A DNA stretch of 40,647 nt, from the NCBI GenBank assembly GCA_021604405.1, contig BQJA01000025.1:1-40647 (forward strand), in the 5' to 3' direction. Made by a program: the position numbers and the translations under genes. Under the pieces are notes generated by a model. It did not search any database, was not told the origin of the DNA, and worked only from the letters and a program-made list of their open reading frames with translations. Shown here piece after piece: positions 2,980 through 24,181 of this stretch. This stretch comes from Nitrosomonas sp. (GTDB taxonomy: Bacteria; Pseudomonadota; Gammaproteobacteria; Burkholderiales; Nitrosomonadaceae). Each line of letters starts with the position of its first letter. Position 1 is the stretch's first letter.

Positions 2980-5790
2980 TTAATGAACTAAACGCAGCCC
3001 CGGCGGCAATGACTCCCCATACATACTCCGTTCGTCAGCTTCTTGCAACTCAGTAGTGCGCTGAACTAACGTAATCCATGATGCTGGACTTCTGGCTGAT
3101 TGTAAACACTGAACGATTTGTTCGCGCAGTTGTGGCTGAATATCCCGCTCTCGATCACCGCTCATACGTGCCAACATGGTTGCAGCAAATGCAGCGGTCT
3201 GGTTTTTCTTCCAATCCAGTTTGAAGGTAAGTTGCAGCCAGTTTGTCGCAATTTCAACCGGCACGACGTTATGAACGCTGCCATAAAATGGTACGCGCGC
3301 TCCGATGCGTCCGACAGCCCACCAGGTTTGAGGAGATTCCGATGCATTTTGCAAGCGTTCCAACAGCCATTCACCCACTTCAACTTTGCGTGCTGCTGGC
3401 AATCGTTCCAATGTTGCAACCAGACTGACCATATCATCATAACCCTGCTGTTTTGCACCTGGTTGCCGTTGCCTGGCGCGTTTGCCAGGAGGGCGCAGGC
3501 TGTCAGCAATATCATCGGCAATCTGACATTGCGCCGGTTCATCCAGCCCACCGCTCACGCGCCGCCACAATGTCCACCATTCCGCCCATACCGCTGCATC
3601 AGGTGTATATTGTATTCCCTTCTGGTAAATAGTCCATAATTGTCGCACCCGCCAATCATCGAGTGGATAGCCAAATCCCGGACGCATACAGAAGCCCGCC
3701 AAATTAAACCATAATCTTTCATGTGTTGAAGAGCGGCGGCGGCGTTGACCGCACGCCCAGAATATGCCGAACAGTTCCCGCAGTAAAGGCGTATCCCACT
3801 CATCACGCTTGCCTAAAATCTTTTCCAGATCGGTCCGTAGAATCTTTATCGCCTTAGGATTCACCTGTTTTGAAGGCGGACCATATACCTGATTAATCCG
3901 TCCGGCTGCGTCGACAAAACACGGATGCAAATCACTGGACATACTGGACACCAGTCCACCTTTGCCACCACGCAATTGAAACTCCAGTTTCCAATGCTGT
4001 GACGGTTTATCTTTGGCGACGCAGGCCATTTCAAGTGTGCCAATTTCGCTCAATGTTGTTTGTATCTGTACCGGTACTTCAATGCTATGTTCAGGATGCA
4101 TATTTTTATCCTGCGTTAATACGGTAGCGATAGGCGGCAATAAAGTGAATGTGATTTCATCCAGCGTCACGACGTCTCCCGGCATGTAGACAGCATCACT
4201 GACCGATGAAACAAGATGAAAACGCACGGGTTCGCCAGTACGCAGGGCAAATATGCGTTCAGTCAATTGAATCGACTGACCTTCCTCGGCGCCACGCGGT
4301 AATATGCAGACAGCTTGTTGCGCCGCTTGCGCTGCAGCTACCTGAATAAAATAACTCCGCGCTGAACCGCCTCCAATTCTGACCCCTGCGCCCTGGCGCG
4401 CCATGGCATAAGCAACTGCACCACGCGCAACGGCAAGATCAGGATTCGCATTTTGTAGTTGTTGCAGTGGCGCACCGCGCCATCGCGCCAATATGTCCAA
4501 CAGGCGCTGCGATATCAAGGTGCTATTAAATATGCCCCCATTGAGCAAGATAGTATCAGGAATGGGAATACTGTTATCCAAAGGTGCGCGTTCACCGAGC
4601 GCATCATGCGAGGCCTGCGCATGGAGGGTAAGAAATGCTGCAACATGCCGGCTGATGGCTGGATCCGCAACATAGGGCAAACCGAACTCAACAATGCCTC
4701 TGCGGGTGTGTTGTGGAAGCTCATCCAGTGACGTGACAGGCAAAAACCCATCCAGCAGCATACTGTGTACTGCATCGCGGCATAGTTCAGTGGAGCGTGC
4801 ACCACCAATCAGTTTAGCACCCGTGCCTAAAATGGTCACGGTGGTTTTTTCCGGCGCATCGGGATTCAACAAGCGTTCCTTGGCTGTACGGCATTGTTGC
4901 ATGAGTTGTGAAAGGCTCGCGGCGCTCAACGGCGCACCCGGTGTAACCAGTTGTCCTTCTGCAACATGAGCCAATGCCAGGTCCATGTTATCACCGCCCA
5001 GCATAAGATGATTACCCACGCCGACTCGTGTCAGCTGCACTTGACCATCATCCTGAGGCTCAACTTTAATCAAGGTAAGATCGGTAGTGCCGCCACCTAC
5101 ATCGCAGACCAAGATCAGGCGGACATCCGCTAACAAGGAATTTAATTGCTGCTGATGAGACGCCAGCCAGTCATAACAGGCGGCTTGCGGTTCTTCAACC
5201 AAACGTGCGCCGGCAAGGCCTGCCAGATGGGCTGCTTCAACCGTCAATGTCCTGGCCCCCTCATCAAAAGAGGCCGGTACGGTGATAATGACTTCCTGTT
5301 TCTCCAGCGGATATTCAGGAAATTGATGATTCCAGGCGCTGCGTACATACGCCAGATAAGAAGCACTGGCATGCACCGGTGAAATTTTACCGATATCATC
5401 AGCACCCCCCCAAGGCAAAATTGGCGCCATCCGGTCGACTGCCGCATAGGATAACCAACTTTTTGCACTGGCAACCAGGCGACCAGGTACACGTGAACCC
5501 AGTTCGCGGGCTAGCTCGCCAAACACAGCCAGGGGATCTTGTGCATCAATACGCGCTGCCTGCCATGGCAACTGAATATCGCGTCCGGCAAGTTCTTCCG
5601 CAGCAGGATGATAACGTAAAGACGGCAATAACGGTCGCTCGGCCACTTCGCCTGGCGCAACCAGCTGTTCGATGGAGAATAATTCTATGACGGGCTGAGT
5701 CTGCTTCAGATCAGCGTAGGCTGCGACGGTATGTGTGGTGCCCAGATCGATACCGACGATATAGCGGTTTGATTTTTTGATTCCGCTCAA
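2980..5790 (-). CDS. Large Hsp70-family ATPase with long C-terminal extension (DUF3731-type)
   Basis: This 936-residue protein has an actin/Hsp70-type ATPase fold. The phosphate-1 motif is VGIDLGTTHT (12-21), phosphate-2 is DVGGGTTDL (230-238) and the adenosine motif is LLNGGIFNS (415-423). Compared with DnaK, GGGTFD has become GGGTTD and the adenosine loop is NGGIF. ITVPASF and EEPQAA replace ITVPAYF and NEPTAA. A short beta-rich segment ends near 610. Residues 611-936 form an extra, Trp- and Arg-rich, probably helical domain that is absent from DnaK. I recognise this as the DUF3731 type found on such proteins in proteobacteria. The ATG overlaps the stop of the upstream Hsp70 gene by four bases, implying translational coupling. 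Client and function are unknown. No J-protein or nucleotide-exchange factor gene is adjacent. Confidence 0.9.
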   Translation of the reverse strand: MSGIKKSNRYIVGIDLGTTHTVAAYADLKQTQPVIELFSIEQLVAPGEVAERPLLPSLRYHPAAEELAGRDIQLPWQAARIDAQDPLAVFGELARELGSRVPGRLVASAKSWLSYAAVDRMAPILPWGGADDIGKISPVHASASYLAYVRSAWNHQFPEYPLEKQEVIITVPASFDEGARTLTVEAAHLAGLAGARLVEEPQAACYDWLASHQQQLNSLLADVRLILVCDVGGGTTDLTLIKVEPQDDGQVQLTRVGVGNHLMLGGDNMDLALAHVAEGQLVTPGAPLSAASLSQLMQQCRTAKERLLNPDAPEKTTVTILGTGAKLIGGARSTELCRDAVHSMLLDGFLPVTSLDELPQHTRRGIVEFGLPYVADPAISRHVAAFLTLHAQASHDALGERAPLDNSIPIPDTILLNGGIFNSTLISQRLLDILARWRGAPLQQLQNANPDLAVARGAVAYAMARQGAGVRIGGGSARSYFIQVAAAQAAQQAVCILPRGAEEGQSIQLTERIFALRTGEPVRFHLVSSVSDAVYMPGDVVTLDEITFTLLPPIATVLTQDKNMHPEHSIEVPVQIQTTLSEIGTLEMACVAKDKPSQHWKLEFQLRGGKGGLVSSMSSDLHPCFVDAAGRINQVYGPPSKQVNPKAIKILRTDLEKILGKRDEWDTPLLRELFGIFWACGQRRRRSSTHERLWFNLAGFCMRPGFGYPLDDWRVRQLWTIYQKGIQYTPDAAVWAEWWTLWRRVSGGLDEPAQCQIADDIADSLRPPGKRARQRQPGAKQQGYDDMVSLVATLERLPAARKVEVGEWLLERLQNASESPQTWWAVGRIGARVPFYGSVHNVVPVEIATNWLQLTFKLDWKKNQTAAFAATMLARMSGDRERDIQPQLREQIVQCLQSARSPASWITLVQRTTELQEADERSMYGESLPPGLRLVH

Positions 5791-7637
5791 GACCCGCCTT
5801 CCGTGCTGCCACGCGCATCAAACTCAACTTTCCAACGCTCCCCAGTGGGCGATACAGCTTCTAAATGCAAGGTACCTGTTTCTGTAATGGCTGCTTGCAA
5901 ATGGACCGGAACAACTTCGCCAGGCGAATGATTTTCTGCGGGCAGATTGATCTCGATTTCTTCCAGTTCTTCGATTTCTTCAGGCGACCAGTGATCAAAC
6001 ATTACACCCACCTGATCATCACGCCGTACCGATGAACCAAAAAAACGAAACCTTACCGGTTCACCAACAATCAAACCAAATTCCTGACCAGAAAGCTCAA
6101 CGCATGTCCCTTCTTCCATGCCAAAGGGCGCAACACACAATGCCTGAATTGGTGGTTCAATACCAGGAACCGCTGGCATGGCACTTTCCACGCCGATATA
6201 GTAAGATTTGGCGGTGCCGCCACGAATACGCACGCCCTGTCCAAGCCTGACATGCCCATAATAAGCCGCACCTTTTGCCACGGCGAGATCTAGATCCATG
6301 CCTTCCAATACGCGTACATTGGGCGCATCTTCTTTTTGCAACCAGCTGTTTATCACTTCACACACGCGCTCAGCCATCAACTCGGCCTTGAATACCCCGC
6401 CATTGAACAGGATTGCCGTCGGATGCAAAAAACCTGCGTCTCGTGTTGACGGACTTTCAAAACCCGCCAACTCAACGGCGGCACTGCTTTGTCGGGTCAA
6501 GAACGCCGCCAAATGCCGGGTTATCGCAGCATCCTGGGCGTAGGGCAGGCTAAGCCGGGTTAATGCGCCGCGTGCCCGGGAAAGCGGTTGCGCCGTAACA
6601 TCTACGCGCGGAAAAAAACCCTCGACAATAGCTTGCATCAATTCAGCACGTGTTAGATCAGTACGCAGCGTCCCGCCGATTAACCGCGAGCCCCGACCGG
6701 GCACAACAACAGGCACAGTTTCCACATCTGGATCATTTAATAAGGTTTCTTTGGCGGCTCGACAACCATGAGTCAGCCCCTGTATTTGCCATGGTTCAAG
6801 GCGGGTGCCTTGACTGGACAGCTTGGCGCCAATCACATGGGCTAATGCCAGATCCATATTGTCCCCTCCCAGTAGAATATGGTCACCTACCGCAATGCGC
6901 TGCAAAGTGAGATTGCCTTCCTGCTCTGTCACCGCAATCAATGATAAGTCGGTGGTTCCACCACCCACGTCTACCACCAGAATAATATCGCCGACATGAA
7001 CCTGCTTACGCCAGTCTCCGCAAGTAGCCTGTAGCCAGCTATACAATGCCGCTTGCGGTTCTTCCAATAAAAGGAAATTTTCCAGGCCGATGGCTCGTGC
7101 AGCTTCCGCGGTTAAATCCCGTGCCGCAGGATCAAAAGAAGCCGGAACAGTAATCGTCACCGATTGCTCCGCCAACGGTGCATTGGGATATTTGTTATTC
7201 CAGGCGCCACATAATTCCTGCAAATAATAAGTTGAAGCCTGTAATGGTGAAATTTTTTCTACATCATCAGGTGCGTCCAACGGCAAGACGGCAGCGCGCC
7301 GGTCTATTCCTGGGTGACACAGCCAGCTTTTTGCACTGGCTACCAAACGTATCGGCGTGCGTGCACCCTGGCTACGGGCCAGTTCACCAACCACATAATG
7401 CCGTTCACCACGCCCTGACTGAGTTATATCATCTTGCGCAAATTCCTCAGGATGCGGCAAATATAAAAAAGATGGCAGTAATACTTTTTCTTCTACGTTA
7501 CCTGGCGATGTCAGTTGAGGGACACTCATGACCTGCTGCTGCGCCCCTTCCCCCTCACTTTGTGTCAAATCCACAAATGACAAAGCGCAGTGTGTTGTGC
7601 CTAAATCAATGCCTACGCTATATCTTGCATTGCTCAC
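5787..7637 (-). CDS. Hsp70-family ATPase (second gene of the DUF2760/Hsp70/Hsp70 operon)
   Basis: This 616-residue protein is about the size of DnaK but divergent. Phosphate-1 is VGIDLGTTHC (8-17), phosphate-2 is DVGGGTTDL (223-231) and the adenosine motif is LFNGGVFKA (410-418). TVPASFD and LEEPQAALYSW are shared with the larger downstream paralogue, so the two genes probably arose by duplication. The C-terminal 150 residues contain a reduced beta-domain (ETGTLHLEAVSPTGERWKVE) and no clear helical lid. The C-terminal EEVD/DnaK-type tail is absent. The start overlaps the stop of the DUF2760 gene by four bases (7634-7637) and its own stop overlaps the next start, so the three proteins are probably made together. 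Likely cytosolic. Function unknown. Confidence 0.9.
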   Translation of the reverse strand: MSNARYSVGIDLGTTHCALSFVDLTQSEGEGAQQQVMSVPQLTSPGNVEEKVLLPSFLYLPHPEEFAQDDITQSGRGERHYVVGELARSQGARTPIRLVASAKSWLCHPGIDRRAAVLPLDAPDDVEKISPLQASTYYLQELCGAWNNKYPNAPLAEQSVTITVPASFDPAARDLTAEAARAIGLENFLLLEEPQAALYSWLQATCGDWRKQVHVGDIILVVDVGGGTTDLSLIAVTEQEGNLTLQRIAVGDHILLGGDNMDLALAHVIGAKLSSQGTRLEPWQIQGLTHGCRAAKETLLNDPDVETVPVVVPGRGSRLIGGTLRTDLTRAELMQAIVEGFFPRVDVTAQPLSRARGALTRLSLPYAQDAAITRHLAAFLTRQSSAAVELAGFESPSTRDAGFLHPTAILFNGGVFKAELMAERVCEVINSWLQKEDAPNVRVLEGMDLDLAVAKGAAYYGHVRLGQGVRIRGGTAKSYYIGVESAMPAVPGIEPPIQALCVAPFGMEEGTCVELSGQEFGLIVGEPVRFRFFGSSVRRDDQVGVMFDHWSPEEIEELEEIEINLPAENHSPGEVVPVHLQAAITETGTLHLEAVSPTGERWKVEFDARGSTEGGS

Positions 7638-8212
7638 AGTTCAATCTCCGCCGGCGCCAACACCTTCACATCATGACCTTCCGTGAGCTTCGGCAAGGTA
7701 ATCTTTTGAATACGCCAGCCACGGTGAATTAAGGTGCCATTAAACGGTGGTTTCCCTGTCACATTGCCGGTTACACGAATAGCCGAGGCATCAAAACCCG
7801 CTGGCAAAGTTATTCGAGCCCCTTCTTGTTCACTTCGCACGGGCTCGGTAATCATATGATCGTGCAAAGCTCTGCGACAACCATCGTGCACCACTCTAAC
7901 CGCAGCGCCAATATCAGCATCAGAAAATTGCGTGACATCTTCTTCAATAAAATCAATGAAGCGGCCCTCTTGCTGCAACAAACCTAACAGCTGGAGCGCT
8001 GAATCAGGCGGCGTTTCCTTTAACGACGGAGGCGCAGCCTGAGATTTGGGTTTAGCTGTGACTGCTGGTTCTTCCACGGTAACAGCGGGGCTTTCACTTT
8101 TACCAATGCGCATAACGGCACCAGCAAATTCTCTATTAAATATAAAACGGAAAAAAAAGCTGAATGCAAGAAAAAATCGTGCAAAAAAGCCCGGCCCAGC
8201 AGATTCGCTCAT
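7634..8212 (-). CDS. DUF2760 family protein (first gene of the Hsp70-pair operon)
   Basis: This 192-residue protein starts at an ATG with an excellent ribosome-binding site (AAGGAG, six bases upstream). Residues 8-30 are very rich in Phe (FFARFFLAFSFFFRFIF), an amphipathic or membrane-associating segment. A Pro/Ala/Lys linker follows (about 40-65). The rest is a compact domain with a LQLLGLLQQEGRFIDFIEED motif and a VRVVHDGCR segment. I recognise this as DUF2760, which commonly precedes paired Hsp70-like genes. The Phe-rich N-terminus suggests that it could hold the two ATPases at the inner membrane, but that is inference. No catalytic residues are apparent. Confidence 0.85.
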   Translation of the reverse strand: MSESAGPGFFARFFLAFSFFFRFIFNREFAGAVMRIGKSESPAVTVEEPAVTAKPKSQAAPPSLKETPPDSALQLLGLLQQEGRFIDFIEEDVTQFSDADIGAAVRVVHDGCRRALHDHMITEPVRSEQEGARITLPAGFDASAIRVTGNVTGKPPFNGTLIHRGWRIQKITLPKLTEGHDVKVLAPAEIEL

Positions 8213-8218
8213 TGTTAT

Positions 8219-8224
8219 CTCCTT
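8219..8224 (-). promoter_or_regulatory. Strong ribosome-binding site of the DUF2760/Hsp70 operon
   Basis: AAGGAG on the minus strand lies six bases before the ATG of the DUF2760 gene. It fixes the start of the operon's first gene and contrasts with the overlap-coupled starts of the two Hsp70 genes. No sigma-32-type promoter or CIRCE element was seen upstream. Confidence 0.75.
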
Positions 8225-8482: not shown

Positions 8483-9163
8483 TCACTGTACAAGCTGTCC
8501 GCCCGCCAAGCGGATCTGCCGTGAGCAGCGATTAGATATGGCCTCGTCATGAGTGACCAAAACCAATGTCGTCCCATGTTCACGATTAAGCTCAAACATA
8601 AGCTCTATAATTTGCGTGCCAGTCGAGACATCCAAATTACCGGTCGGCTCATCGGCAAGCAATAATTTTGGGTCCGTGGAAAAGGCACGAGCGATGGCAA
8701 CACGCTGCTGCTCTCCACCTGAAAGTTGCTTGGGATAATGTTTTAAACGCTTTTCCAAGCCAACGCGTTCAAGTAATTTCATTGCAGTTGCGTCGGCTTT
8801 CTTAAACCCGGCGAGTTCTAGTGGCAGCATAACATTTTCCATAGCAGTTAATGCGGGCAATAATTGAAAGGACTGGAAAACAAAACCGAGTATTTTTCCT
8901 CGCAAAGCTGCCCGATCATCTTCATTCAATGAAAAAATATCAACACCATTCAAGTGAACTTTACCCTGAGTTGGCATATCCAATCCAGCGAGTAATCCCA
9001 GAAGGGTCGATTTTCCTGAGCCGGATGCGCCAACAATAGCAACGGCCTCGCCGGGATTTACTTCCAGGTCGATATTCTGCAGAATAGTTAATTGGATATC
9101 GCCGGTATTTACTTGTTTAGTCAGAGCCCTGGCTTGAAGAATGGGCTTAATCAATTTATTCAT
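8483..9163 (-). CDS. ybbA: ABC transporter ATP-binding protein, YbbA/LolD type
   Basis: This is a 226-residue ATPase subunit of the MacB/LolD/YbbA class, which pairs with FtsX-like permeases in the inner membrane. Walker A is GASGSGKST (45-53), the Q-loop is FVFQSFQLLP, the ABC signature is LSGGEQQRVAIARA (147-160), Walker B is LLLADEP (167-173) and the switch histidine is in LVTHD. It lies back to back with tesA, as ybbA does in Escherichia coli, which argues for YbbA rather than LolD. The matching ybbB/ybbP-type permease gene is not adjacent downstream; a 270-bp gap and the DUF2760 operon follow. The start codon is one base from that of tesA. The likely ribosome-binding site (AGGA, 11 bases upstream) lies inside the tesA coding sequence. 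Confidence 0.85.
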   Translation of the reverse strand: MNKLIKPILQARALTKQVNTGDIQLTILQNIDLEVNPGEAVAIVGASGSGKSTLLGLLAGLDMPTQGKVHLNGVDIFSLNEDDRAALRGKILGFVFQSFQLLPALTAMENVMLPLELAGFKKADATAMKLLERVGLEKRLKHYPKQLSGGEQQRVAIARAFSTDPKLLLADEPTGNLDVSTGTQIIELMFELNREHGTTLVLVTHDEAISNRCSRQIRLAGGQLVQ

Positions 9164-9164
9164 T

Positions 9165-9812
9165 ATGAAAAAAATCCTAATCGTTATTTGTTTTCTTTTT
9201 ACCGCCAGTTATGGCGCAGCGATCGCATCGACCAATCCGGTTACGGTGATGATACTGGGTGATAGTCTGTCAACGAGCTATGGTATGCCTTTGCAAGCTG
9301 GCTGGGTAAATTTGTTGCAGCAACGTTTACAAGCGCATTCACCAGCTTATCAAGTAATCAATGTCAGTATCAGCGGCGAAACAACGCTGGGCGGACGTAA
9401 TCGGATCAATCAGGCACTTCAGGCGCATAATCCAGACATCGTCATGGTTGGACTTGGCGGCAACGATGGGCTGCAAGGTTCATCTATTAAATCCATTTAT
9501 GAAAATCTGGAAGCAATCATTACAAGCTGCCTGCAAAATGACGCGGCAGTATTACTGCTTGGTATGCAAATTCCGCCCAATTATGGCATTTCCTATACCC
9601 AAAAGTTTCGTGATATTTATCCGCAATTGGCAAAAGAGTTTCAAGTTAATCTGGTGCCATTTTTATTAGACGGTTTTGGTGAAAACCGGGAATATTTCCA
9701 GTCTGATGGAATCCATCCAAATATTCGGGCACAGGAAATCATTGTAGAAAATGTCTGGCCAGTATTATATCCCATGCTTCACCCTGAACAAGTCGCGGCA
9801 AGTGTGGATTGA
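9165..9812 (+). CDS. tesA: Periplasmic arylesterase / lysophospholipase TesA (GDSL/SGNH hydrolase)
   Basis: This 215-residue SGNH-fold esterase has a Sec signal peptide, MKKILIVICFLFTASYGAAI, cleaved near residue 21, so it acts in the periplasm. Catalytic blocks are all present: GDSLSTSYG with Ser34, INVSISGETTLGG (block II), GGNDG (99-103, block III) and DGIHPN with Asp181 and His184 (block V). Such enzymes hydrolyse aryl esters, lysophospholipids and acyl-CoA thioesters. The frame is also open from an ATG at 9141, but that start would put eight residues before the signal peptide and lie within ybbA. I prefer 9165. No clear ribosome-binding site precedes either ATG. It converges on rluC with 22 bases between. 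Confidence 0.9.
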   Translation: MKKILIVICFLFTASYGAAIASTNPVTVMILGDSLSTSYGMPLQAGWVNLLQQRLQAHSPAYQVINVSISGETTLGGRNRINQALQAHNPDIVMVGLGGNDGLQGSSIKSIYENLEAIITSCLQNDAAVLLLGMQIPPNYGISYTQKFRDIYPQLAKEFQVNLVPFLLDGFGENREYFQSDGIHPNIRAQEIIVENVWPVLYPMLHPEQVAASVD

Positions 9813-18609: not shown

Positions 18610-19467
18610 TTAAATAACACCATAAACACGTTCAGCTGCCTCGATAGTGTTGCAAAGCAACATGGTTATCGTCATTGGGCCAACGCCCCCAGGAACCGGT
18701 GTAATGAAACCAGCCTTTTCTTTAACCGATGCAAAATCTACATCCCCTACCAGCTTTCCATCAGGCAAGCGATTTATTCCAACATCAATGACGGTAGCAC
18801 CGGATTTTACCATTTCCTTACTAATCATCCGCGGTCTTCCAGTTGCAACGACCAGAATATCCGCATTCTTCGTATACATAGCCAGATCCCGGGTTTTAGA
18901 TGTACAAATTGTAACAGTTGCACCTTTTTCCAGCAGCATCAATGCCATCGGTTTACCAACAATATTACTGCGCCCTACCATCACCGCATGCTGGCCTTCT
19001 ATCGGAATATGTTTTTTATTCAGCATGATCATGATGCCGTGCGGTGTACAAGGCGAAAAAACAGTATTTCCTGTCACCAATGCACCCACATTATAGAGGT
19101 GAAAACCATCCACATCTTTCTCAACAGCAATTGATGTCATGATCCGGTTTGCATCAAAATGCTGAGGCAATGGTAATTGCACCAGAATTCCATGAATGAA
19201 TGGATTTTCATTTAACTCCTGGATACAGCATTGCACATCATCCTGTAGCGTATCCTCAGGGAAATTATGTACCTCAGAATGTATTCCGACCTCACTGCAC
19301 GCCTTGACTTTATTGCGCACATAGATTTTTGCAGCCGGATCATCCCCTACAATAATTACGGCCAATCCTGGCTTTAGACCGTTTTTTTCAAGGATTTCAG
19401 CGCGTACTTTGAGTTCAGCACGAACTTCTTTTGCTATCGCTTTTCCATCTATGACGTTGGCGCTCAT
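18610..19467 (-). CDS. folD: Bifunctional methylenetetrahydrofolate dehydrogenase / cyclohydrolase
   Basis: This 285-residue cytosolic enzyme interconverts 5,10-methylene-, methenyl- and 10-formyl-tetrahydrofolate, linking serine-derived one-carbon units to purine and formyl-Met-tRNA synthesis. The catalytic Y-x3-K pair lies in KIYVRNK (Tyr49, Lys53). Other family motifs are [20 protein letters not shown], the nucleotide-binding [14 protein letters not shown] and the C-terminal [15 protein letters not shown]. Length is normal. It is the last gene of the minus-strand cluster metK-ahcY-metF-(unknown)-folD, 58 bases downstream of the unknown membrane protein. Confidence 0.97.
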
Positions 19468-19525
19468 TATTTCCGAGGTTGATTAACTGTCCAGGGTGAA
19501 AACATCGTTGAGGTTATCTCAAAAA

Positions 19526-20209
19526 CTATGGAGTAGGTGACTGTCTGGGTTTTTTGATTTTAAATCGATAAATCAGTAACCCAATTAAAAACACAGGTAT
19601 AACAAAAATGGTGGCTGCAAGTAATCCTGCAGCAAGAATAGAAATAGCGCTATTTCCAGGCAGGAAAAGCGTGACAAACCAAATAACAATAAAGGCTATC
19701 CCCAGGCCTCCATACAGTATGGTTTTTTTTAGGCGTTCATAAAGCCGCCAAAATGCGCCTGAAACCCTCACCTCGTCAATATAAAGGTCAAGCAAACCGG
19801 CAAGACTATTGTCACCGGGCTTTGAGCGATAACCAGCCTCTACTGCTTCTGCATTACTGCCATCTTCCAGACGGGACATTTTTCTTAAAAATTCAATGCG
19901 TTTATGTACGTTTTTTTCGTGCATTCCATCATTGATCAGCATTGAATGTATCGTTGTAAATGCATGTTCACGCGCATTTTTGTGTGCATCCAATCCTTCT
20001 GCAAATCGCCAGACGGCACCCAGCAAATACAGATGAATCGTCATTTCCTGAAATTGTGGCGCAAAGTCATACCCTTTATTTTTAATAACTGCGAGTTGGG
20101 TATCCATAACTTCCCTACCGTACTTAACACAAGCCTCATCTATTGATCCGCTTGTATCTGTTTTGGTTTCATTTTCTGAATCAATTATTGTTTCATCCAT
20201 CGCTAACAA
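19526..20209 (-). CDS. Protein of unknown function with two C-terminal membrane helices
   Basis: I do not recognise a family for this 227-residue protein. The first 25 residues are acidic and probably disordered. Residues 30-160 are soluble and mostly helical, with conserved-looking aromatic stretches (PQFQEMTIHLYLLGAVWRFA) and a charged RIEFLRKMSRLEDGS segment. Two transmembrane helices follow at about 164-184 and 190-214, separated by a short LPGNSAIS turn, ending in a basic tail (RFKIKKPRQ). The hairpin predicts both ends on the cytoplasmic side. A second ATG three codons in could be the real start. It lies between metF (28 bases upstream) and folD in the one-carbon cluster, but nothing in the sequence ties it to folate chemistry. 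Confidence 0.7.
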   Translation of the reverse strand: MLAMDETIIDSENETKTDTSGSIDEACVKYGREVMDTQLAVIKNKGYDFAPQFQEMTIHLYLLGAVWRFAEGLDAHKNAREHAFTTIHSMLINDGMHEKNVHKRIEFLRKMSRLEDGSNAEAVEAGYRSKPGDNSLAGLLDLYIDEVRVSGAFWRLYERLKKTILYGGLGIAFIVIWFVTLFLPGNSAISILAAGLLAATIFVIPVFLIGLLIYRFKIKKPRQSPTP

Positions 20210-20237
20210 CCCTTATCCGGTTAATTCAATTGTCAAA

Positions 20238-21083
20238 TTATATGCCTAGTCGCCGCCAAATGGCAGTCGTTAATTCTGCTGAATTCATCGTGTAGAAATG
20301 CAAACCTGGCGCGCCAGCATCAAGTAGCCGTTCGCATAAATCTGTCACAACGTCTAGTCCAAAAGCATGAATGGAATCAGCATCATCCCCATAAGCCGCC
20401 AGTTTTTTTCGAATCCAGCGAGGAATTTCTGCACCGCATGCATCTGAAAACCTAACCAACTGTACAAATTTATTGATAGGCATCACGCCTGGCACAATCG
20501 GAATTTTCATGCCGATCTTCTCACATGAATCGACAAAATGGAAATAAGCCTCAGCATTATAAAAATACTGGGTCAAGGCTGAGTCTGCACCTGCTTCCGC
20601 TTTGCGCTTAAAGTTTATTAAATCTTCTTGCGGAGATTTGCATTGGGGGTGATATTCCGGATAAGCGGCAATTTCAATATGAAACGTATCCCCAAACTCT
20701 TTACGGACAAAAGAAACCAGCTCATTAGCATAACGAAACTCACCCGGCTGCGCCATTCCCGAAGGCAAATCACCTCGTAACGCAACAATACGTCGGATGC
20801 CATTATCCCGGTATTTTTCAAGTATCGCCCGGATATTTTCCTGCGTTGACCCGATACAAGAAAGATGCGGCGCCGCAACAAGTCCTTCGGCCTGAATTTC
20901 AAGTACGGTTTCAAGTGTTCGGTCACGCGTTGATCCGCCCGCTCCAAACGTCACGGAAAAGAATTTTGGGTTAAGCTGCGCTAATTGTTCACGGGTTGAG
21001 CGCAATTTACTCACGCCTTCCGGTGTTTGTGGCGGAAAAAGTTCAAAACTGAAAGTGGGAGTAAAATTTTTTTGTGATTGCAT
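20238..21083 (-). CDS. metF: 5,10-methylenetetrahydrofolate reductase
   Basis: This FAD enzyme reduces 5,10-methylene-THF to 5-methyl-THF, the methyl donor for methionine synthesis. From the ATG at 21083 the product has 281 residues beginning MQSQKNFTPTFSFELFPPQT, which is the normal MetF start. SFELFPP carries the conserved active-site Glu. SVTFGAGGSTRDRT, HLSCIG, IVALRGDLP and LTQYFYNAEAYFHFVD are family motifs for folate and FAD binding. The frame is open upstream to a GTG at 21170, but the extra 29 residues (rich in Cys, Ser and Leu) look non-native and overlap a decayed coding remnant, so I reject that start. The ribosome-binding site is weak. Confidence 0.95.
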   Translation of the reverse strand: MQSQKNFTPTFSFELFPPQTPEGVSKLRSTREQLAQLNPKFFSVTFGAGGSTRDRTLETVLEIQAEGLVAAPHLSCIGSTQENIRAILEKYRDNGIRRIVALRGDLPSGMAQPGEFRYANELVSFVRKEFGDTFHIEIAAYPEYHPQCKSPQEDLINFKRKAEAGADSALTQYFYNAEAYFHFVDSCEKIGMKIPIVPGVMPINKFVQLVRFSDACGAEIPRWIRKKLAAYGDDADSIHAFGLDVVTDLCERLLDAGAPGLHFYTMNSAELTTAIWRRLGI

Positions 21084-21422
21084 TTGAATACTTAGCGCGA
21101 TTAAAAGATTGGGAGTTATTGTGCGCAGACTTATTGACTGCAATGACTGACAGATTCCACAAGGAGCCACCAGGCTACTTGTGGATATTCTGCAATAAAA
21201 CGCGGAGCAAGCTGCTGAGTAAAAGTGATGCGGACGCCATCATTTACTGCGGGAATGCATATAAATTTAAAGTATCGTTCAGCGCAATTCCCGTTTCACG
21301 ATTATAATACGTCGGCACCGTATCGGCTTACCGCTATGACAACCATCTTAAATCAGACAGTGAGCAGCCGTATAACATTTGGCTTGCGCATTTCTCCCAT
21401 ACAGCACGCGCTATCCAGTTAA
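21084..21422. other. 339-bp ahcY-metF gap
   Basis: Apart from the possible remnant at 21131-21327, I see no gene, no second SAH riboswitch and no clear terminator here. The gap is long for an operon, so metF may have its own promoter, although I could not pick one with confidence. Confidence 0.4.
21131..21327 (-). pseudogene. Possible decayed coding remnant between ahcY and metF
   Basis: On the minus strand, a frame from about 21327 reads ADTVPTYYNRETGIALNDTL and then NLYAFP before a stop. Shifting one base gives VNDGVRITFTQQLAPRFIAE and then YPQVAWWLLVESVSHCSQ before a TAA at 21131-21133. Composition and continuity look like real protein with one frameshift, and an ATG-led intact frame is absent. 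I cannot name the family. It overlaps the rejected upstream extension of metF. Confidence 0.3.
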
Positions 21423-22856
21423 TTAATAGCGATACATTTCCGGCTTATAAGGGCCTTGTTTATCCAGATTGAGATACAGCGCCTGTTCATCTGTCAACTC
21501 AGTAAGCTTTGCGTCAAGTTTGCCAAGATGCAACCGGGCAACTTTCTCATCTAGGTGCTTGGGTAACACATAAACATTGTTCTGGTAATTTTCACCCCGT
21601 TGCCAAAGCTCCAATTGCGCCAATACTTGATTAGTAAATGAACTGGACATCACAAATGAAGGATGCCCTGTGGCGCAACCAAGATTTACCAGCCGACCTT
21701 GTGCTAATACAATAATTCGCTTTCCATCTGGGAAAATAACATGATCAACCTGTGGTTTAATATTTTCCCATTGATATTTCTGAACGGATGCAATATCTAT
21801 TTCAGAATCAAAATGGCCAATATTACAAACGATCGCTTGATCTTTCATTCTCAACATATGATCATGCGATATGACCCGAACATTACCTGTAGCGGTTACA
21901 AAAATATCAACTTGGTCACAGGCTTCGTCCATAGTAACAACCCGGTACCCTTCCATTGCCGCCTGTAGCGCGCAAATCGGGTCAATTTCAGTAATCCAGA
22001 CGGTCGCGCCCAAACCACGTAATGATTGCGCGCAGCCTTTGCCGACATCGCCATAACCACATACCAGTGCAATTTTTCCTGCGATCATTACGTCGGTTGC
22101 CCGCTTAATCCCGTCCACCAAAGATTCGCGACAGCCATAAAGGTTGTCAAATTTTGACTTTGTAACGGAGTCATTGACATTAAACGCTGGAAAAGGCAAC
22201 TCACCATTTTTTTGCATTTCATATAAGCGATGAACACCGGTTGTTGTTTCCTCTGTCACACCACGGATAGCTGCAAGTTTTTTTGAATACCAATCAGGCT
22301 GTGCAGCCAATTTACTTTTGATGGAAGCAAATAACGCCTGTTCCTCTTCATTCCCTGGATTCGCAATAACCGATTGATCTTTTTCTGCTCGACTGCCCAG
22401 AATCAATAGTAAAGTTGCATCACCACCATCATCCAGGATCATATTTGCGCTTTCAGGCTTACCATCAACCTGCCATTCAAATATCTGGTGAGCATATTCC
22501 CAATAATCTTCCAGTGATTCACCTTTGTAGGCAAATACAGGAATCTTTCTCGCAGCAATTGCAGCAGCCGCATGATCCTGTGTTGAGTAAATATTACACG
22601 AAGCCCAGCGAACTTCTGCACCCAATGCGACTAATGTTTCGATGAGCACCGCGGTTTGTATCGTCATATGCAATGAACCGGCAATACGTGCTCCCGCCAG
22701 TGGTTTCTGGCCAGCGTATTCTTCACGCAACGCCATTAAACCCGGCATTTCGGTTTCTGCGATAGCAATTTCTTTGCGTCCCCATTCTGCTTGGGACATA
22801 TCAGCGACTTTACAATCGGCAAAATTCATATCATTTGGACTAAGCACAGCGTTCAT
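21423..22856 (-). CDS. ahcY: S-adenosylhomocysteine hydrolase (adenosylhomocysteinase)
   Basis: This cytosolic, NAD-dependent enzyme splits S-adenosylhomocysteine into adenosine and homocysteine, relieving product inhibition of methyltransferases. The ATG at 22856 has a strong AGGAG seven bases upstream and gives 477 residues beginning [20 protein letters not shown]. The frame continues upstream to 22907, but that extension runs into the riboswitch and lacks a ribosome-binding site. Family motifs include [15 protein letters not shown], the NAD-binding [35 protein letters not shown] and the C-terminal [12 protein letters not shown]. The insertion around residues 140-190 is typical of the bacterial long form. 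Expression is probably controlled by the SAH riboswitch just upstream. Confidence 0.97.
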
Positions 22857-22884
22857 AAATTTACTCCTAAATACAGAAACAAGC

Positions 22885-22947
22885 GCAGTTGTTACGAATA
22901 CCCTCACACTGAGCCTCGCGGATAAATGACCGCTGCAGCGCTCCTCA
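22885..22947 (-). promoter_or_regulatory. SAH riboswitch upstream of ahcY
   Basis: The minus strand carries the conserved SAH-riboswitch core TGAGGAGCGCTGCAGCGG, beginning at 22947. It continues through a GCGG/CCGC hairpin (loop TCATTTAT) into CGAGGCTCA ending at 22910. TGAG and CTCA form the closing P1 stem. The rest of the element, probably the P4 region, runs toward the AGGAG ribosome-binding site at 22868-22864. SAH riboswitches are known before ahcY in proteobacteria and switch the gene on when S-adenosylhomocysteine builds up. Boundaries are approximate. An upstream TCCTC (22958-22954) could pair with the core GAGGA and form a competing stem. Confidence 0.85.
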
Positions 22948-23017
22948 ACATGAGAGGATTAAAACTTAAAGATTAGATTGGAAGCTGTTAAAAACCAATA
23001 GGCGCCCTCACGCTACG

Positions 23018-24181
23018 CTAGATCCCTGCTGCAGCGCGAAGTTGTTGTGATTTATCGGTCGCTTCCCAAGTGAAATCTGCACCTTCCCGCCCAAAGTGAC
23101 CATGAGCTGCCGTTTGTGCATAGATCGGACGCAATAAATCGAGTGTATGAATAATGGCGCGGGGACGCAGATCAAAATGTTCTTCAATCAATTGAATAAT
23201 TTTTTCATCTGGAATCTTCCCAGTACCAAAAGTTTCTACCATTACAGAAACTGGACGGGCAACCCCAATTGCGTAAGCCACCTGCACTTCACATTTAGAT
23301 GCGATGCCAGCAGCGACAATATTTTTTGCCACATATCGGCCAGCGTATGCGGCTGATCGATCAACTTTTGAAGGGTCTTTGCCAGAAAAAGCCCCGCCAC
23401 CGTGATGCGCAGTTCCACCATACGTGTCAACAATGATTTTGCGGCCAGTCAGTCCACAATCACCCATCGGACCGCCGACGACAAAGCGTCCCGTAGGATT
23501 CACCAGATAATTGGTTTGCCCGGTCAGCATTTCTTTCGGCAGTATGGGCTTAATGATTTCTTCAATTACAGCTTCCGTCAGTTCATTGTGAGAAATATCA
23601 GGATCATGTTGCGTAGAAATCACCACGGTATCTATGCGCTGCGGTTTACCGTCCTGATACTGGACGGATACCTGCGATTTCGCGTCTGGACGCAACCAGC
23701 CTAACTGCCCGTTTTTTCTTAGTTCCGCTTGTCTTTCTACGAGCCGATGGGCATAAAATATTGGCATTGGCATCAATTGCGGGGTTTCGTCGCAAGCATA
23801 GCCAAACATCAGGCCTTGATCACCCGCACCCTGATCCATTTCATCTTCTACTGAACGGTCAACCCCCTGGGCAATATCCGGTGATTGTTTATTGAAAGCT
23901 GTTAATACCGCACAAGTCGTGGCATCAAAGCCAATTTCAGAGCTGGTATAACCTATTTTTTGGACTGTTTCGCGTGCTATAACATTGTAATCCACTGTAG
24001 CATGCGTGGTTATTTCACCTGATAAAACAATTAATCCTGTGCTGCACATTGTTTCACAGGCAACACGTGCATTTTTATCCTGGACCAAGATTGCATCTAA
24101 AACCGCATCTGAAATCTGGTCAGACACCTTATCCGGGTGCCCTTCAGAAACTGATTCTGAAGTAAAAAGAAAATCACTCAT
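23018..24181 (-). CDS. metK: S-adenosylmethionine synthetase
   Basis: This 387-residue cytosolic enzyme makes S-adenosylmethionine from methionine and ATP. It begins [20 protein letters not shown], the canonical N-terminus with the ATP-contacting [22 protein letters not shown] is the MetK signature. The P-loop-like [22 protein letters not shown] and the C-terminal [12 protein letters not shown] are also present. Length is normal. It is the first gene of the methyl-cycle cluster; a TATAAT box 32 bases upstream suggests its own promoter. No SAM riboswitch was seen before it. ahcY follows after about 160 bases containing the SAH riboswitch. Confidence 0.98.

Follow-up and report, generated by a model that had tools for sequence, protein, structure and literature searches.

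Two Hsp70-like ATPases and a DUF2760 protein encoded as a three-gene set in Nitrosomonas: a possible membrane-tethered chaperone machine

What might a bacterium do with two Hsp70-like ATPases encoded one behind the other and preceded by a small protein of no assigned function? The question is raised by a 40,647-nucleotide stretch of DNA from Nitrosomonas sp. (contig BQJA01000025.1 of assembly GCA_021604405.1; this whole stretch is called the window below), in which a gene for a DUF2760 protein is followed by genes for two Hsp70-like ATPases, which we name HspA and HspB, the latter ending in a DUF3731 domain. The usual picture of an Hsp70 machine is a single Hsp70 that J-proteins and exchange factors drive. 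Our tentative answer, to which we give a little less than an even chance, is that the three genes form one unit and encode a membrane-tethered, two-ATPase machine of the Hsp70 type with its own non-J partner. If this is true, two active-looking paralogues, one without the usual J contacts, and a membrane-linked non-J partner would together show that the Hsp70 motor can also be driven in a different manner; the set also offers three testable genes that lack an assigned function.

The three-gene arrangement on the minus strand described in the original prediction for this locus is real, with products of 192, 616 and 936 amino acids. The first of these matched the Pfam family DUF2760 (PF10816) at E = 4.5e-54, both ATPases exceeded the HSP70 (PF00012) cut-off of 20.6 bits (HspA 56.2 bits, 2.5e-15; HspB 60.1 bits, 1.7e-16), and residues 687-934 of HspB matched DUF3731 (PF12531, 'DNA-K related protein') at E = 8.4e-104. 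The window proteins are clear members of both DUF families, whose Pfam labels give no function. Curated NCBIfam cut-offs were reached by none of the three proteins, scores with the DnaK and HscA models not exceeding 91.7 bits where the cut-offs are 620 or higher. Our search of the literature, mostly non-subscription, found no paper naming DUF2760 or DUF3731 and, judged by title or abstract, none describing the three-gene set; a published function, for which the original prediction had allowed, was likewise not found in the literature searched.

The two domains that mark the ends of the set occur together. Among 299 Pseudomonadota genomes, DUF2760 was found in 22 and DUF3731 in 21 (the two counts are taken as one draw since the listed handles agree): 21 genomes carried both, none carried DUF3731 only, 277 carried neither, and the sole genome with DUF2760 only was a draft (G449), which gives a Fisher p of 2e-31 for co-occurrence if relatedness is ignored. 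In 20 of the 21 double-positive genomes, the coordinates place both domains on one contig and the same strand, 3.7-7.1 kb apart. Because each domain was found in just 9 of the 153 genera sampled in this draw, and G520, a one-contig genome from the same genus as the window, had neither, the set appears to be accessory, with parts that come and go together. A sample of the class gave DUF2760 in 9 and DUF3731 in 10 of 229 genomes, nine being common to both; in the tenth DUF3731 genome (G174) the contig end falls inside HspA. Each domain was absent from all 14 control genomes (0/14 and 0/14).

The order of the three genes is conserved as well. Beyond the 21 Pseudomonadota genomes with both domains it recurs in Myxococcota, where DUF3731 was present in 33 of 188 sampled genomes (centred on G231, titled Sandaracinaceae). 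Loci from 31 of these 33 genomes, some of which overlap the genomes of the named loci below, showed DUF2760, HspA and HspB in order in 20 cases, with ∼2 kb between the ATPases in two of the 20; in the remaining 11, HspB was present but the stretch did not contain the complete set, and contig ends cut some of them. DUF2760 was detected in 19 of 20 DUF3731 genomes checked, nine of them by construction; since 10 of the other 11 were also positive, with DUF2760 elsewhere in the genome, the partnership seems often to outlive adjacency. In one genome (G418) DUF2760 lay 33 kb away from HspB, and two genomes (G233 and G238) had two DUF2760 matches each. A second view of gene order comes from 80 named loci, the best 80 of at least 391 confirmed DUF2760 relatives, in which DUF2760 is present by construction. 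HspA comes next after DUF2760 in 79 of these, the contig of the 80th ending there, and HspB lies within 400 bases in 65 and farther off in 2; in 6 the contig runs out within 751 bases and truncates HspB. One locus (L013, genome G224) has two extra reading frames between HspA and HspB. By title, the hosts are presumably mostly Burkholderiales and Gammaproteobacteria, with some Myxococcota and one Thermoanaerobaculia.

How closely the genes are coupled differs between the two junctions. The original prediction had read two ATGA overlaps behind one strong ribosome-binding site and had taken the products to be probably made in fixed proportion. The overlaps in the window are four bases long but wrongly quoted, being GTGA (DUF2760/HspA) and TTGA (HspA/HspB), and although an AAGGAG does precede DUF2760, 'one' site is too strong, as GGAG and GGAAGG stretches (by eye) precede the starts of HspA and HspB. 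Of 88 sets, 82 retain the four-base DUF2760/HspA overlap (43 GTGA, 38 ATGA, 1 TTGA), and of 72 adjacent HspA/HspB pairs 29 retain theirs; fixed proportion is therefore plausible for the first pair only.

Aligned over 630 columns, the two window ATPases share 42% identity and are probably old paralogues that arose by duplication within the set. In a tree built without YegD, 30 HspA and 30 HspB sequences each fall on one side of a branch with 99% support in the Shimodaira-Hasegawa-like approximate likelihood ratio test, a split that leaves three Escherichia coli rows uncounted, and a single HspB group was not rejected (approximately unbiased test, p = 0.845). Their catalytic residues suggest that both proteins hydrolyse ATP: D8, K70, E171, D194, G196-T199 and D201 (DnaK numbering) are kept in 103-104 of 105 HspA, the rest being gaps, and in 105 of 105 HspB. 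Non-DnaK motif changes had been claimed for both window ATPases, and GGGTTD, NGGVF/NGGIF and EEPQAA are indeed what is read there. Across the families, N170 is replaced by E in 104 of 105 HspA (one gap) and in every one of the 105 HspB, and at F200 the sequences carry T, S, A or, in a single case, M. Of the 105 HspA, 66 have the second T of GGGTTD (against 31 with S, 7 with A and one gap), as do 102 of the 105 HspB.

The additional part of the larger ATPase, put at about 325 residues in the original prediction, amounts to ∼320-330 residues in HspB. In its predicted model (mean predicted local distance difference test score, pLDDT, 76.3; alignment of 10 sequences), a nucleotide-binding domain (NBD) and beta domain extend to about residue 607 and are followed by helices over 625-924. 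Crystal DnaK (7kru) can be superposed on residues 9-604 (Z 31.8, 462 residues, 5.8 Å), and the top structural match is the integrative DnaK model 9a5j (Z 34.1); these structural matches cover HspB 7-607 only, so that DUF3731 lies outside their range. HspA consists of an NBD and a part resembling the beta portion of the substrate-binding domain (SBD-beta). It appears to be without a lid, because its alignment to HspB stops at HspB residue 612, about where the lid of DnaK starts; in HspB, the helical DUF3731 stands where that lid would be.

A further departure from DnaK concerns J-proteins. The residues R167, Q378, L391 and P419 of DnaK are named as J-domain contacts in the available text of a 2021 review (PMC8215388). 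Among 105 HspA they are kept in 4, 0, 0 and 0 sequences and among 105 HspB in 80, 0, 29 and 0, where R167 and Q378 adjoin firm alignment anchors and the counts for L391 and P419 are alignment-dependent; E. coli HscA and HscC have all four. When checked without an alignment, none of 98 anchored HspA had a Q at the Q378 place. Similarly, a linker-like hydrophobic stretch after the GAA motif occurs in 0 of 98 HspA versus 47 of 93 HspB (L011, L020, L021, L030 and others), counts that drop 7 HspA and 12 HspB rows without the anchor motif and refer to a linker (VLLLD in DnaK) whose position differs between the MAFFT alignment and reading by eye. Since the contacts are largely lost and no linker-like stretch is seen in HspA, whereas HspB keeps some of both, HspA looks J-independent and HspB may still meet a J-protein, and the paralogues may be regulated differently, given their difference in the linker. 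Both ATPases share with E. coli DnaK the NBD and SBD-beta fold and the ATP-site residues, but differ from it in N170, in F200 and in Q378, which is never Q, and in HspA no DnaK-type linker was found and a canonical lid appears to be missing.

The third protein begins with Phe-rich helices, which a low-confidence model places at about residues 9-38, followed by a linker and the DUF2760 domain at 69-191. No match to solved structures was found at E up to 1, and when the protein was searched for a J-domain profile its sole Pfam match, with E allowed up to 0.01, was DUF2760. Its association with a membrane is likely, judging by the N-terminal sequence. Of 89 DUF2760 sequences, the window's included, 10 reached a best 19-residue hydropathy of at least 1.6, 67 lay at 1.0-1.6 and 12 stayed below 1; in five of the 89 (L040, L055, L010, L018 and L017) a clear membrane helix (hydropathy of at least 2.5) occupies the position of the Phe-rich helix. 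The helix motif could be located in 82 of the 89, and 40 of 63 distinct helix stretches exceeded their shuffles in amphipathicity at p < 0.05, the window's own with p = 0.044.

The claim that no J-protein or GrpE gene is near was borne out by phmmer searches with E. coli DnaJ, GrpE, HscB and DjlC, which found nothing in the window; the same four queries gave a single weak J match in 122 stretches including the window, with positive controls detected for dnaJ and grpE stretches, none for HscB and DjlC, and the proviso that single-query phmmer can miss divergent J-domains. That sole match (1.7e-4; L021:2835-3455) lies upstream of DUF2760. Besides HspA and HspB, two matches occur in the window genome, a full-length one of DnaK type and a short one of Hsp70 type. 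The absence of a heat-shock promoter, also claimed originally, agrees with 99 sigma32-like matches in the window against a shuffle mean of 121.6, that is, chance level without excess; sigma70-like promoters and terminators around the three-gene unit were likewise at chance level.

Taken as a working mechanism, lidless HspA and HspB, with its helical DUF3731 in place of a lid, would act jointly, most probably in a heteromer. The DUF2760 protein would hold the pair at the cytoplasmic membrane and, as a dedicated cofactor, would replace the J-protein and GrpE of other Hsp70s. Through its ATP cycle the pair would take hold of a restricted client and let it go again, and this client is probably a protein of the membrane or envelope. 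Among known systems there is a likeness to HscC of E. coli with DjlB/DjlC: HscC is a specialized Hsp70 for which the available text of PMC8215388 suggests a plasma-membrane role through membrane-anchored dedicated cofactors without GrpE, as would apply to our set if its tethering is as we infer. That system, however, has one Hsp70 with J-domain cofactors, in contrast to two Hsp70s with a partner that matches DUF2760 only. The same text gives three prokaryotic Hsp70 types. That the set is a further bacterial type beside DnaK, HscA and HscC, with an obligate paralogue pair, a membrane-bound DUF2760 protein running the cycle and DUF3731 as a shared lid or client arm, is a bolder proposal that we consider unlikely as it stands.

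Several results weigh against a membrane-tethered two-ATPase machine. HspB is missing from 6 of the 80 named loci despite at least 3.6 kb of room; in genomes behind loci without an adjacent HspB, DUF3731 was found in 9 of 13 searched, with no match in 4 of 13, and for the loci with room but no HspB, five searched genomes had DUF3731 elsewhere in three cases and nowhere in two. Many genomes behind the named loci are drafts, and in one of the four without a DUF3731 match (L084) HspB is cut by a contig end. A first tree that included YegD, a very long branch, scattered the HspB sequences, and the R167 kept in 80 of 105 HspB, with the linker-like stretch in 47 of 93, makes J-independence of HspB doubtful. 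For the DUF2760 protein, the model is poor (pLDDT 61.5), the hydrophobicity of the helix is no more than moderate (median 1.28) and 23 of the 63 helix stretches are not significantly amphipathic. These last tempered the earlier suggestion that the Phe-rich N-terminus may bind membrane, which gained from the true transmembrane helices found at that very place in five sequences. The dedicated machine that had been proposed fares in a similar way: co-occurrence and kept catalytic residues support the set, the five transmembrane cases support a membrane role, and HspB stands apart in a minority of loci. Frequent separation of the genes had been named as a sign against it; HspB is apart or missing in that minority, but of 11 DUF3731 genomes in which DUF2760 had not at first been seen, 10 carry it.

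Other readings have to be set beside this one. The ATPases might be nucleotide-dependent switches in a regulatory or signalling module, acting for example on envelope polysaccharide output, and not folding chaperones. StkA, an Hsp70 homologue of Myxococcus xanthus, negatively regulates exopolysaccharide (PMC4319316), and the missing lid of HspA and a linker region far from that of DnaK would suit a switch; yet the stk locus, in the available text of the same paper, has SCP2- and PhaE-like partners and no DUF2760 or second Hsp70, and no gene family is constant beside the set in 91 loci, which leaves us regarding the switch as rather unlikely. A different possibility is that HspB is an exchange factor or trans lid for HspA, like Hsp110 for Hsp70, with the DUF2760 protein merely localizing the pair. 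The likeness to Hsp110/Sse1 with Hsp70 is a pair of Hsp70-type paralogues of which one is enlarged, here a lidless one and one with a large helical extension; HspB superposes on the HSP110 NBD 6gfa (Z 30.8, 352 residues) about as well as on many DnaK rows, and Sse1 appears among its Foldseek matches at ranks 34 and 37. Full DnaK chains nevertheless outrank Sse1 in Foldseek, and two draft genomes with HspA and downstream room show no DUF3731. Unlike Hsp110/Sse1, the set is bacterial and has a DUF3731 extension and a predicted membrane-linked partner. As both ATPases retain their catalytic residues, neither resembles a pure exchange factor, and we consider this account improbable.

We are more sceptical still of a reading in which the three genes supply chaperones for general stress that in part duplicate DnaK, with HspB perhaps still answering to J-proteins. 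It would fit the R167 and frequent linker-like stretch of HspB, and deletions of non-canonical Hsp70s of M. xanthus, including the 925-aa MXAN_5323, reduce sporulation and peroxide resistance (PMC8265645, available text). The length and NBD-only annotation of MXAN_5323 in that source fit HspB, making it a candidate orthologue; other Hsp70-matching open frames of ∼900 aa occur away from DUF3731 matches in Myxococcota. Against a stress set stand the patchy distribution (9 of 153 sampled genera), the full-length DnaK-type match in the window genome, the lack of sigma32-like excess in the window and a Q378 position that is never Q in HspA or HspB. Under heat, MXAN_5323 was exempted from the 'unchanged or decreased' group in transcriptomics, yet showed no obvious rise by quantitative PCR (PMC8265645, available text). 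A Thiodictyon 'DnaK-related protein' (AUB85620.1) is more abundant in the dark according to the available text of PMC6413534; its link to HspB is a match of name only.

Table 1. Coordinates of the three-gene set and associated features in the window.
Feature	Position	Strand	Description	Basis
DUF2760 protein gene	7634..8212	-	192 aa, ATG start	Open reading frame and Pfam
HspA gene (name coined in this analysis)	5787..7637	-	Hsp70-like ATPase, 616 aa, GTG start within GTGA overlap	
HspB gene (name coined in this analysis)	2980..5790	-	Hsp70-like ATPase with C-terminal DUF3731, 936 aa, TTG start within TTGA overlap	
DUF3731 domain of HspB	2989..3732	-	All helical in predicted model	Pfam
AAGGAG, putative ribosome-binding site	8219..8224	-	6 bases 5' of DUF2760 ATG	Read by eye

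Other connections were tried and rejected. Many of the named host organisms store polyhydroxyalkanoate, which prompted the idea of a link to its granules; PhaC_N is present in 120 of the 299 genomes and in 11 of the 22 DUF2760 genomes, and it is absent from the window genome. A defence origin was dropped, PADLOC giving only part-length matches to PDC-M61B (4.5e-07 and 1.3e-05), as was a phage origin, since the PHROGs families matched by the ATPase parts of the two Hsp70s have no assigned function and DUF2760 matched none.

Outside the three genes, the commonest clustered family of neighbouring genes across the 91 loci occurred in 28, in mixed positions and on mixed strands. In eight loci (L014, L015, L021, L022, L025, L028, L037 and L039) a gene that by eye resembles a CheY-type response regulator lies divergently ∼60-145 bases upstream. 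Nothing out of the ordinary was seen among the window genes scanned around the set, which encode a porin O/P, an ABC ATPase and a GDSL esterase, or among ten genes farther off, mostly housekeeping. At 8483-9812 of the window, YbbA/LolD-like ABC ATPase and TesA-like GDSL esterase genes are divergent with overlapping starts, and a methyl-cycle cluster of FolD-, MTHFR-, AdoHcyase- and SAM-synthetase-type genes occupies 18610-24181 on the minus strand.

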